Assembly (NCBI RefSeq): GCF_002706795.1
Contig: NZ_CP017705.1
Span: 1,740,001-1,804,000, forward strand
From: Brevibacillus laterosporus DSM 25
GTDB lineage: Bacteria > Bacillota > Bacilli > Brevibacillales > Brevibacillaceae
Length of the DNA stretch: 64,000 nt
Direction of reading: 5' to 3'
Positions 40,946 through 44,378 of this stretch are shown here, in pieces. Below the pieces are notes generated by a model. The model saw only the letters and a program-made list of their open reading frames with translations, ran no database searches and was not told the DNA's origin. The position numbers and the translations under genes were made by a program. The first letter of the stretch is position 1; each line of letters begins with the position of its first letter.

Positions 40946-41497
40946 TTACTTTGGTTCTATTAACCCGTATCGTCCATCATTTCGACGATAGACTACATTT
41001 ACATCATTACTTTCACTGTTTTCAAAGACGAAGAAGTTGTGGCCCAGAAGTTCCATTTGCATAACGGCCTCTTCTGAATCCATCGGTTTTAAGTTGAATC
41101 GCTTGGTTCTTACGATATCAAACTGTACATCATCCTCTTCATCCGCTACAGCTACAGAGGAAGCTTCCATAGTTGGCATAGCTTTATTCCCTGTTTCATG
41201 ACGCTGTTTACGGTTGATTTTTGTTTTGTACTTACGCATTTGACGCTCTAATTTTTCGACAACTAAATCAATTGCTGCATACATATCATCGTGGGTCTCC
41301 TCTGCTCGGAGAATAACTCCGGTCATCGGAATGGTTACCTCAATGGTTCCTTCTCCACGAAGCACGCGCATCGTTACATGTACCTCTACATGACTTAGGT
41401 TGTCAAAATAGCGTTCGAGACGGCTTATCTTTTTCTCTACATACTCCCGAAGAGCTTCTGTAACTTGAATGTTTTCGCCACGAATATTGTAGTTCAT
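40946..41497 (-). CDS. hpf: Long-form ribosome hibernation promoting factor
   Basis: 183 residues. The N-terminal RaiA/HPF domain (about 1-95; YNIRGENIQVTEALREYVEK, HVTMRVLRGEGTIEV) binds the 30S subunit. A linker and C-terminal dimerisation domain (about 125-183; RTKRFNLKPMDSEEAVMQME, GHNFFVFENSE, VVYRRNDGRYGLI) drive 100S ribosome formation. The Met of MNYNIRGENI is eight bases after AAGGAGG and is preferred over the GTG two codons earlier. It precedes secA as in B. subtilis. A hairpin sits directly before its ribosome site. Confidence 0.96.
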   Translation of the reverse strand: MNYNIRGENIQVTEALREYVEKKISRLERYFDNLSHVEVHVTMRVLRGEGTIEVTIPMTGVILRAEETHDDMYAAIDLVVEKLERQMRKYKTKINRKQRHETGNKAMPTMEASSVAVADEEDDVQFDIVRTKRFNLKPMDSEEAVMQMELLGHNFFVFENSESNDVNVVYRRNDGRYGLIEPK

Positions 41498-41513
41498 GGA
41501 CACAACCTCCTTC

Positions 41514-41543
41514 CGTCTATGCTATTTGTATTCTGCATAGACG
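41514..41543 (-). repeat. Hairpin immediately upstream of the hpf ribosome site
   Basis: Perfect 9-base arms CGTCTATGC / GCATAGACG with a 12-base loop; the 3' arm on the minus strand ends two bases before GAAGGAGG. It may stabilise the mRNA or shape ribosome access. No promoter for hpf was recognised in 41544-41716. Confidence 0.55.
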
Positions 41544-41716
41544 TAAATAAAACCTGCTGTTGCCTCTTTTTGTTTTAACAAAAATCGTGAAAAACAGACA
41601 AAATGTTTAAAAATTTTCACTTGATTTTAATCTTTCGTCAACATAGCAAGTAAGGCTTGTCTCCATTTTAAACCTATTTTGATTTTTTTGAAACAGAGAA
41701 TTTTAAGGAAATAAAC

Positions 41717-41747
41717 ACCAAAAACCCCCTAAGTTAACCTAGGGGGT
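41717..41747 (-). terminator. Terminator after the cold-shock gene
   Basis: Stem ACCCCCTA (41724-41731) / TAGGGGGT (41740-41747), eight-base loop, followed by TTTTTGGT on the minus strand; 17 bases past the csp stop. Confidence 0.88.
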
Positions 41748-41764
41748 ATTGATTATAAAATCAA

Positions 41765-41962
41765 TTAGATTTTAGTTACGTTTGCCGCTTGAGGACCACG
41801 GTCGCCTTCAACGATATCAAACTCTACAGTTTGACCTTCATCCAAGCTTTTGAAACCTTCGGATTGGATAGCGGAGAAATGTACGAATACATCGTCGCCT
41901 CCATCGCGTTCGATGAAACCAAAACCTTTTTCTGCATTAAACCATTTTACTTTTCCTTGCAT
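41765..41962 (-). CDS. cspA: Cold-shock domain protein
   Basis: 65-residue single OB-fold RNA chaperone. RNP1 KGFGFI (residues 13-18) and RNP2 VFVHF (about 26-30) are intact, and [20 protein letters not shown] is the typical start. Probably nucleic-acid binding and antitermination at low temperature or during growth. It is monocistronic: strong promoter at 42019-42047, a leader of about 50 bases, own terminator. Confidence 0.97.
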
Positions 41963-42018
41963 GTATTAAACATTCCTTTCATAAGAAAACTGTGGACTAT
42001 TTGTTAATCCATGATCTG

Positions 42019-42047
42019 ACTATACACCTTGCCTATGGTAAAGTCAA
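42019..42047 (-). promoter_or_regulatory. csp promoter
   Basis: Minus-strand TTGACT (42042-42047) and TATAGT (42019-42024) with a 17-base spacer, about 60 bases upstream of the csp ATG. Confidence 0.8.
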
Positions 42048-42720
42048 ATGCTGGATTATCGACAAATTTCAACGTAGACGATATTTTTTTGTTAAACATC
42101 TAGCGTCAGCCTCAGAAAGGCTTACTCTTACTAGCAAATAAGCCACTACTGCCGTAGTAAAAGCAGGAAAGCGCTCCCATTTTTTTGATTAGATTTTTTT
42201 TCATAAATTCGATTTCAGCAAAAAAAATAGTGCTAAAAATGAAGTAATCTACCATTAAAAATTGGCCTCAGCCCTATACATAAGGGAATTACGATACATT
42301 TTTAGAGATAATTACCAGTTCTAAATGTGAAATTTATTTATCTCTATCAAACGAGCTACTTCCACCTACAGATATTGTCGATTAATTGTATTCTAGCTCG
42401 AAAAATTTCTTCAATTCTATATGAAAATGATGCCACACATTGGACACATAAGATTTTTTAGCTTATTTATTTCTTTATCCACAGCTTACAATAGTAAGCT
42501 AGGTCCACTACTCGTCGTATGGCCATCTGTCTACCTCATTATTTTATAATTTATTCTCTTATTTTATTATCTGTGGGTAACTTAACCTATAATTGCGCAT
42601 TTCCACAAAGTTGTCCACATTATCCACAAGAAGTTGTGCACAAGACCACTGTTTTTGTGCATAACTTAGAATAAGCGCTTCCATCTTGTTCACATCAGCT
42701 TGTTGTCTGTTCTCATAAAT
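42048..42720. other. Gene-free interval containing a DnaA-box cluster
   Basis: No plausible gene in 670 bases. The left part (42048-42470) shows only a small ACTAC/GTAGT hairpin near 42150 and T/A-rich tracts. The right part (42475-42694) contains DnaA-box matches. Exact TTATNCACA occurs at 42475-42483 (+), 42620-42628 (+) and 42656-42664 (-). One-mismatch sites are at 42572-42580 (-), 42611-42619 (+), 42634-42642 (+) and 42686-42694 (+). A nearly pure A+T stretch lies at 42536-42571. dnaA/dnaN are not nearby, so this is not the usual oriC context; a DnaA-titrating or regulatory cluster is inferred. Confidence 0.65.
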
Positions 42721-42763
42721 AAAAAAGACCTCCTAATTTTGATTCAAAAAGGAGGTCTTTAAA
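42721..42763 (-). terminator. Terminator after motB
   Basis: Perfect 11-base stem AAAGACCTCCT (42724-42734) / AGGAGGTCTTT (42750-42760), flanked by A on one side and T on the other so that either strand could terminate. Confidence 0.88.
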
Positions 42764-42799
42764 AAACATTCAATTATGAATATACCTATAGTGAATCCT

Positions 42800-43558
42800 T
42801 CATTCTGTCTGTTCACTTAATACGGTGATTTCCACACGGCGATTTTGGATGCGATTCTTTTCTGTTGTATTCGCTACAAGAGGCTTTGTTTCTCCAAAAC
42901 CGGCGACAATGAAGCGTGATGGAGATAATCCCCGTTCTTGTACAAATTCCTGCATTACTGCCTTTGCACGCGCAAGAGACAGATCCCAATTAGCAACATA
43001 CTGACTTTTTGTAATGGGAGTGTCATCTGTGTGTCCCTCAATTCGCACTTGGTGGGGGAATTTTTGTAATACGTCAGCTAGCCTGTCTACGATCTTTTGA
43101 CCATCTGGAGCTAACTCTGCTGATCCACTAGCAAATAACAAATTTTCCGGTAACCGTATCATCACTCCATCGCTTTCTTCTTCAAAGGGAATATGGAATT
43201 CTTGCAAGGCTTCCCCTACTTTTTCCTTCACTACCTGCATATTTCGATCTACATCTTCCTCTGGTTGTTGACCTGCACCGATAGCCATTACATCACGCTT
43301 TGCAGACAGCTCGCGAATTTCTGCTTCCAATGCTTTCTTTTTCATTTCAGCTACAGCTTGCTCAGCTTTTGCTATCTCTGCTTTTTGAGTAGTTTGAGAT
43401 GCCTTCTGCTGAAGCTCTTGTTGTTGTTGCTTGACCTGAGCCGAGTACATTGCTGCAATGATTATGACGATTATAAACAACAAGGTAATCAAATCGCTAT
43501 AGCTTAATAGCCAGCTCTTCTCCAGCTCCTTCTCATCATACAGACGATCATCCTGCAT
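42800..43558 (-). CDS. motB: MotB-like flagellar stator subunit
   Basis: 252 residues. A short cytoplasmic N-terminus leads into a single transmembrane helix (about 20-40) carrying the ion-binding Asp22 in SYSDLITLLF. A coiled-coil/plug stretch (about 45-95) and an OmpA/MotB peptidoglycan-binding domain (about 130-250; IRLPENLLFASGSAELAP, RIEGHTDDTPI, NRRVEITVL) follow. The Met of MQDDRLYDEK overlaps the motA end by 11 bases. Whether it conducts protons or sodium (MotS-like) cannot be settled by eye. Confidence 0.9.
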   Translation of the reverse strand: MQDDRLYDEKELEKSWLLSYSDLITLLFIIVIIIAAMYSAQVKQQQQELQQKASQTTQKAEIAKAEQAVAEMKKKALEAEIRELSAKRDVMAIGAGQQPEEDVDRNMQVVKEKVGEALQEFHIPFEEESDGVMIRLPENLLFASGSAELAPDGQKIVDRLADVLQKFPHQVRIEGHTDDTPITKSQYVANWDLSLARAKAVMQEFVQERGLSPSRFIVAGFGETKPLVANTTEKNRIQNRRVEITVLSEQTE

Positions 43559-44378
43559 ACTCGCTCTGCCTTTCAATAATTCCTTTCATACTACCTGGCA
43601 TTTTTAAGAGCACTAGCTTTTGATCAGCAGGTAAAAAGGAATTTAGTTTTTCAAACAAAATTCGAGGAGTTTCCACGCGTTGTAACCCTATGCATCCTTC
43701 AATGTAAAGCCGTTTTTCAAACATTTCCTGATCATGAATATCCATCAATCGGTAGTAACATGGCAGCGCAAACATATTGGCTAACAAGGCCCCATACAAG
43801 GTAGCTACCACTGCGGTGCTCAGGCTCTGCCCTGTCTGCGTAAAATCAGACAAGGTTTGTAATACGCCTGTCATCCCCATTAATGTCCCAACAAGCCCCA
43901 TTCCAGGTGCCAGTAAGGCAATCAGTCGAAACATTCCTCCCATCTGCTGATAGCAATGCTGTTCACCCTTACACTCATTCTCTAAAATCATACGAAGTTC
44001 TTGCTCTGATACACCCTCGATCGCTAGCAACGCTCCTCGCTGAACAAATGAATCAGGCTCGTCCATCAACTCTTTTTCCAAGGGAAGATAGCCTTTCTCT
44101 TTTAAAACAAGCGAGTATTGATAAAAACGCTTGATGGTCTCTTCCATGTTATTTTCTCTACCATGAACCAATAACCGGAATAAATGTTTGATTTTAATGT
44201 GTTTACGCTTAATGGCATACGAGATAATGACAGATAATCCCACTAATTCAATTGCCGCTGGATGTAGCAACTGACTTACACTTCCATTTAAATAAATGGT
44301 ATGTATTAAAATAAACATAACTAGTAGAACGAGTAACAACGAACGATTTCTTCCTGCAAAAAATGTTTTTACATTCAT
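43548..44378 (-). CDS. motA: MotA-like flagellar stator subunit
   Basis: 276 residues with four hydrophobic segments (about 13-30, 40-57, 148-172, 185-207) and a cytoplasmic loop (about 60-140). The MotA/ExbB signature with the two conserved prolines is seen in LLAPGMGLVGTLMGM and NMFALPCYYRL. It pairs with the overlapping motB to power rotation. A TATAAT (44423-44428) lies upstream, without a convincing -35. Confidence 0.88.
   Translation of the reverse strand: MNVKTFFAGRNRSLLLVLLVMFILIHTIYLNGSVSQLLHPAAIELVGLSVIISYAIKRKHIKIKHLFRLLVHGRENNMEETIKRFYQYSLVLKEKGYLPLEKELMDEPDSFVQRGALLAIEGVSEQELRMILENECKGEQHCYQQMGGMFRLIALLAPGMGLVGTLMGMTGVLQTLSDFTQTGQSLSTAVVATLYGALLANMFALPCYYRLMDIHDQEMFEKRLYIEGCIGLQRVETPRILFEKLNSFLPADQKLVLLKMPGSMKGIIERQSEYAG

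Follow-up and report, generated by a model that had tools for sequence, protein, structure and literature searches.

Why should a non-coding stretch of the Brevibacillus laterosporus chromosome, 359 kb from dnaA (dnaA at 2,141,635; 6.6% of the chromosome), carry seven DnaA boxes with at most one mismatch within 220 bp? The genome is a single contig of 5,400,144 bp, and the window, by which we mean the whole 64-kb stretch analysed, covers positions 1,740,001-1,804,000; five-digit coordinates below are positions within it. An earlier note had counted three exact and four one-mismatch boxes at 42475-42694, in the gene-free interval between csp and motB. Our box scan reproduces that count when the palindrome at 42634+/42635- TTGTGCACA(A) is taken as one site, and Pfam bears out both flanking genes. 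The features of the locus are:

41765-41962, - strand: csp cold-shock gene (Pfam CSD), the next gene left of the cluster here
42475-42694, no strand: DnaA-box cluster, seven distinct boxes with at most one mismatch (box scan)
42475+, 42620+ and 42656-: the three exact TTATNCACA boxes (box scan)
42475-42483, + strand: exact DnaA box TTATCCACA, at the same place in locus L002 and, with one mismatch, in L003
42536-42571, no strand: A+T-rich tract, 32 of 36 bases A+T (counted by eye), not conserved in relatives
42571-42646, + strand: hit of sequence model R1 at E=1.1e-16, with E=0.012 for its second-best hit in this genome
42572-42580, - strand: DnaA box TTACCCACA, one mismatch, at this place in only L001-L003 of 30 loci
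42599-42643, + strand: conserved core, in which successive boxes start 12, 9 and 14 bp apart (alignment), in the order ATTTCCACA (TTCTCCACA in most relatives), TTGTCCACA, TTATCCACA and palindromic TTGTGCACAA
42599-42607, + strand: degenerate box ATTTCCACA, two mismatches
42611-42619, + strand: DnaA box TTGTCCACA, one mismatch (box scan)
42620-42628, + strand: DnaA box TTATCCACA, exact (box scan)
42634-42643, no strand: palindromic DnaA box TTGTGCACAA, one mismatch on either strand (box scan and alignment)
42656-42664, - strand: DnaA box TTATGCACA, exact (box scan)
42686-42694, + strand: DnaA box TTGTTCACA, one mismatch (box scan)
42724-42760, - strand: probable motB terminator, with an inverted repeat and, after it on the - strand, a run of T (read by eye)
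42800-43576, - strand: motB-type stator gene (Pfam OmpA, MotB_plug), beside the cluster in 29 of 30 loci

The terminator scanner reported none at 42724-42760, where the loop exceeds the scanner's limit. To the left of the cluster, the gene-free stretch 42363-42482 is 0.88-0.97 identical among the three nearest species, with no recognisable gene and no RNA family match. We also considered and rejected a structured RNA as an explanation: across 41000-44000 one family appeared at E <= 1, the neighbouring cspA thermoregulator, whose match over csp and its leader (41719-42013, - strand; E 5.6e-18, 73.7 bits) falls below the gathering score of 78.

Could the boxes have simply piled up by chance? The count of exact boxes gives this view some footing: where about two exact sites per window had been expected in the earlier note, shuffles give a mean of 3.18 (sd 1.59), and the three observed are an ordinary number rather than a raised one. 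It is the clustering that stands out, with all three exact boxes of the 64-kb window falling inside 42475-42694. At a density of 1.205 boxes (at most one mismatch) per kb, the Poisson chance of at least seven boxes in one given 220-bp stretch is 1.4e-8; genome-wide, exact boxes number 277 vs. 185 for a reversed-pattern control. We then scored clusters (boxes plus exact boxes per 220 bp, a width taken from the finding itself and so favouring this cluster) over 2.064 Mb of the 5.4 Mb, comprising 1.264 Mb around oriC and 0.8 Mb elsewhere. The motB-side cluster ranks first in the 2.064 Mb, with a score of 10 (seven boxes, three exact) and a narrow lead over gcp and oriC, the next scores being 9, 9 and 8. 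The other clusters, with distances given where measured, are:

gcp/tsaD cluster, +416 kb: six boxes, three exact, score 9
dnaA upstream cluster: six boxes, three exact, score 9
dnaA-dnaN cluster: six boxes, two exact, score 8
cluster 15 kb from dnaA (-15 kb): four boxes, two exact, score 6
ywlC/spoIIR cluster, -270 kb: four boxes, two exact, score 6

Here the gene names gcp and ywlC were recognised by eye from translations, not by database search; on the same chromosome, the gcp/tsaD-downstream cluster lies at 2558298-2558508 and the ywlC/tsaC-spoIIR cluster at 1871846-1872017. No cluster of score at least 5 was present in the 0.8 Mb scanned away from oriC, and six Markov controls of 1.264 Mb peak at 5 vs. 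10 for the motB-side cluster. A random scatter of similar clusters, named beforehand as evidence that would speak against a special site, was not observed in 2.06 of the 5.4 Mb. Several DnaA boxes are clustered here beyond chance and outside oriC, which is one property of a chromosomal DnaA-box cluster (DBC).

Conservation refutes the chance pile-up, to which we assign next to no probability. A BLAST search with 42430-42700 matched 35 of 59 genomes (its own included), 33 of them from family f1, and this 271-bp stretch missed the family members G007 and G014, both of which were later detected by a model built from 23 loci by sequence alone. In close relatives, where the earlier note had proposed to look, the cluster is present throughout: in each of the 39 genomes of the window's order, from seven genera, the model finds a single strong match (E 1.6e-24 to 4.4e-13), and the next-best match anywhere in those genomes is 3.2e-6. 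Sixteen of the 39 lie outside the training set of the model. Together with its survival of the loss of either neighbour (below), this shows evolutionary retention as a non-coding element, a second property of a DBC.

What is conserved is the core and its geometry. Box order and spacing are fixed across relatives in the alignment: relative to the box at 42611, the array reads TTCTCCACA at -12 (ATTTCCACA here, where this box has decayed in the B. laterosporus window), TT[A/G]TCCACA at 0, TTATCCACA at +9 and the palindromic TTGTGCACAA at +23, with an inverted TTATNCCCA at +35 additionally present in many relatives. Mean pairwise identity over 34 loci peaks at 0.87-0.92 between -10 and +20 (three 10-bp bins), in part through selection, since it was by their core that the loci had been found. 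Between -120 and -60, and again from +50 on, the bins give 0.26-0.34; identity drops to background within 50-70 bp of the core. Identity between the three nearest species is 1.0 in the 40-bp bin starting at 42603 and 0.62 in the bin from 42523, which holds most of the A+T tract.

Scanning 84,980 species genomes for the box array, a set from which the window's own genome records may be left out, returned 23 stretches, 20 of them under the name Brevibacillus and the other three from Anoxybacillus sediminis, Tepidibacillus decaturensis and Paenibacillus koleovorans. Two records call for separate comment. Record NZ_CP064048.1 (L234), of Anoxybacillus sediminis PCH 117, has a Brevibacillus-type cluster and is probably misnamed; genome G013 groups with the window's family, and its dnaA match is split over two open reading frames, perhaps through a sequencing frameshift.

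Many weaker second model hits, about 60-100 kb further from oriC, turned out to belong to a different conserved array, which in B. laterosporus lies outside the window at 1721811-1722212, about 18 kb to its left (loci L062, L247-L261 and L263). In 17 of 17 loci, all chosen through those hits, a CGAAC-N4-GTTT motif leads straight into TTGTGCACAA and another two box-like sites; we take the motif to fit the LexA box of B. subtilis. The array sits directly upstream of a small open reading frame of about 70-95 aa (LIYQE...ECLLT, start codon uncertain), found in 26 of 299 class genomes, all from f1, with one stop in 3 of the 26 matches; it has no Pfam match (for a 70-aa cut) and no NCBIfam match, both at E <= 0.01. 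This may be a gene under joint SOS and DnaA control, checkpoint-like in character.

Returning to the cluster itself, its place on the chromosome is rather constant. Across 16 family assemblies, taking the main contig as circular, its distance to dnaA is 5.4-10.6% of the main contig (median 9.8%), with the cluster on the other chromosome arm in two of them (G023 and G028); in G236, a single-contig genome from another family, the distance is 4.8%. Such an oriC-proximal position is a further property of a DBC. The earlier note had also raised a secondary origin. Like a bacterial oriC of the dnaA-dnaN type, the locus has DnaA boxes, some with a 12-bp step, and in this species the box cluster adjoins an A+T-rich tract. 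Against a secondary or relict origin, that tract is not conserved, and in-phase triplets under the DnaA-trio rule number at most two on either strand vs. six at the dnaA-dnaN gap of this genome, so that no trio run is present. Every 2-kb step of the 64-kb window has a negative GC skew, without a switch. Furthermore, the cluster is not linked to dnaA-dnaN, and dnaA itself, with box clusters on both sides, is at 2.14 Mb, away from the window. In each of these respects the locus differs from an oriC, and we consider an origin here very improbable.

The neighbouring genes offer another reading, namely that DnaA uses the cluster chiefly as an operator, of an ABC operon in most of the family and of csp or motAB in this species. 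Both motB and motA lie on the same side of the cluster in 29 of 30 loci. On the other side, in 26 of 30, the nearby gene start is that of an amino-acid ABC substrate-binding protein (SBP_bac_3 in the one such gene tested with Pfam), in many of them with a permease reading frame behind it, and by ATG readings the core is roughly 60-130 bp from the ABC-transporter gene in most relatives. Clusters of several other families also lie at an amino-acid ABC operon, and DnaA of B. subtilis seems to act as a repressor of genes adjoining its clusters, according to the accessible part of one report (PMC4447404). Two of the five promoter-like matches in the window fall in the cluster (42617-42589, - strand; 42543-42570, + strand), although 4.3 are expected by chance.

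Losses of these neighbours argue the other way. The ABC gene is lost at 4 of 30 loci (G000, G003, G004 and G012, whose best substrate-binding matches are 33-34% paralogs; the first three are the lineage of the window that lost the gene), with the cluster still there, and motA is lost at one of 30 (G005, best match 23%), with ABC gene and cluster both kept. Because the cluster survives the loss of the ABC gene or of motA, neither neighbour alone explains its retention, which weakens the case for the cluster as nothing more than an operator, be it of csp, of motAB or of the ABC operon. Nor does the cluster hold a fixed place relative to one retained target gene: its position differs from family to family, and either neighbour may be missing. 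The promoter scans as a whole are at chance level, no sigma-70-like promoter was found in the two relatives scanned, and some 650 bp separate the core from the csp start, for which there is a good promoter-like match at 42047-42019. Searching viral contigs with the MotB protein produced no confirmed relative, a result that says little. Of the control of flanking genes proposed earlier, a side role is possible, given the ABC gene near the core, but it is hardly the sole role, as the cluster outlives either neighbour; as the chief use of the cluster, regulation of these genes seems to us unlikely. In relatives the cluster may, in addition to titration, serve the ABC operon as an operator.

The buffering of DnaA, also raised in the earlier note, is the option best supported, the cluster being conserved, surviving neighbour loss, lying near oriC and being accompanied by gcp and ywlC clusters as in B. 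subtilis. We therefore favour the reading that it is probably a DBC of the B. subtilis kind and would titrate DnaA. As a non-coding landing site, it would accept several DnaA molecules, and its ordered boxes, with starts 12, 9 and 14 bp apart, may promote cooperative binding. Lying 5-11% of the chromosome from dnaA in the assemblies measured, the cluster should be copied soon after initiation; the doubled cluster would then soak up free DnaA and, together with the gcp, ywlC, 15-kb and oriC clusters, could delay the next initiation. In B. subtilis, deletion of six DBCs outside oriC leads to early initiation, which one DBC put back partly relieves, according to the accessible text of a review (PMC5295017) that also states that the B. 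subtilis clusters have no significant role in initiation. Against titration, only three of the seven boxes are exact, and in most relatives the cluster abuts an operon, where a regulatory role is possible.

Alternatively, a datA- or DARS-like site would change the nucleotide state of DnaA rather than hold DnaA. IHF and Fis are not known in Bacilli, and unlike E. coli datA and DARS, a site in this class is not expected to have them as partners. The cluster does share with the E. coli loci datA, DARS1 and DARS2 its non-coding character, fixed box geometry and rather steady relative distance to oriC, as far as the accessible part of one paper describes those DnaA-box loci (PMC4585315). However, datA needs IHF and DARS2 uses IHF and Fis, and B. 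subtilis has no identified regulator of DnaA-ATP/ADP conversion, as stated in the accessible text of the same review (PMC5295017). We regard a datA- or DARS-like role as quite improbable.

Beyond the family, the model revealed where else in the class such clusters lie. At E <= 1e-6 it matches 65 of 398 class genomes, 36 of f1 and 29 others with 31 hits. Fifteen of these 31 fall in the block fliD-fliS...ABC operon-csp-hpf-secA, in eight families (f8, f18, f20, f22, f24, f30, f31 and f32). There the cluster may lie upstream of hpf or of the substrate-binding gene, separate the latter from the permease gene, or stand between fliS and csp/hpf, among other placements. The remaining 16 comprise three dnaA regions, four hits at gcp/tsaD and nine without the block, tsaD, ywlC, dnaA or dnaN in the 5-10 kb around; two of these nine belong to G051, some 17 kb away from the dnaA of that genome. 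The Paenibacillus koleovorans locus lies between fliS and csp. In f18, f30 and f31, an amino-acid ABC operon has a DnaA-box cluster between its substrate-binding gene and its permease gene (L106, L112, L120, L122, L283, L289 and L308).

A survey of the block itself took one genome per family for 24 families (f2-f25), as met in the first sample of relatives, of which 23 were testable (G042 was left out, with hpf at a contig end). Seven of the 23 have a block cluster of score at least 7 (G041, G046, G051, G052, G053, G056 and G057), adding f13, f19 and f23; G041, G053 and G057 were scored on 5-kb stretches fetched for the model hit and the other 20 on 13-kb hpf-side stretches. The other 16 families have no cluster of score at least 7 in the block (with the stretches of G039 and G047 shortened by contig ends), a strict threshold that only 24 of 34 f1 loci reach, the others scoring 3-6. 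No second cluster above score 4 occurs in the 20 13-kb stretches (two of them shortened), and one of score 6 is present in the 5-kb stretch of G057.

With f1 included, 12 families of the class have a block cluster, and the association across Bacilli is real but patchy. Because oriC and gcp of other families show the 12/9 box step as well, common descent of the block clusters is unproven: either a single old locus was lost or weakened many times, or boxes arose in the block again and again. Tentatively, and with less than even confidence, we suggest that the fliS...hpf-secA block may be an old DnaA-sink locus of Bacilli, in which the cluster stays while genes come, go and change order. If so, the DnaA-cluster set of B. 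subtilis would be reduced or reshuffled, and the block would be a class-level locus of replication timing.

The kind of element is known from B. subtilis. As in its DBCs and strong DnaA regions (ywcI/vpr, gcp/ydiF, trmE/jag, ywlC, yydA and sda), several boxes lie in a short intergenic stretch, and there are several sites per chromosome, mostly oriC-proximal, with gcp/tsaD and ywlC clusters in B. laterosporus also. An in vitro DnaA map of B. subtilis has oriC, ywcI/vpr, gcp, trmE, ywlC, sda and yydA as its strongest regions, and in the accessible part of that report the top 20 of 269 regions name no hpf, fliS, motB or secA (PMC4447404), unlike B. laterosporus, where the motB-side site ranks first, narrowly over gcp and oriC. 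The motB-side site is thus not named in the published top 20, as far as that part of the report goes. An open-licence literature search found no paper on this locus, on DnaA boxes or oriC of Brevibacillus, or on DnaA-box titration in Paenibacillus; the accessible text of a 2026 review has no passage on 'DBC' or 'titrat' and names the B. subtilis paper only in its references (PMC13220808).

To the study of DnaA titration beyond E. coli and B. subtilis, these findings bring another lineage with a defined cluster set, consisting of the motB-side site, gcp, ywlC and the near-oriC clusters. They also show that a gene is not necessarily regulated through the retained DnaA boxes lying beside it. The motB-side cluster is a strong site that could be deleted without touching a gene, in a family in which some natural members already lack one or the other of its neighbours.
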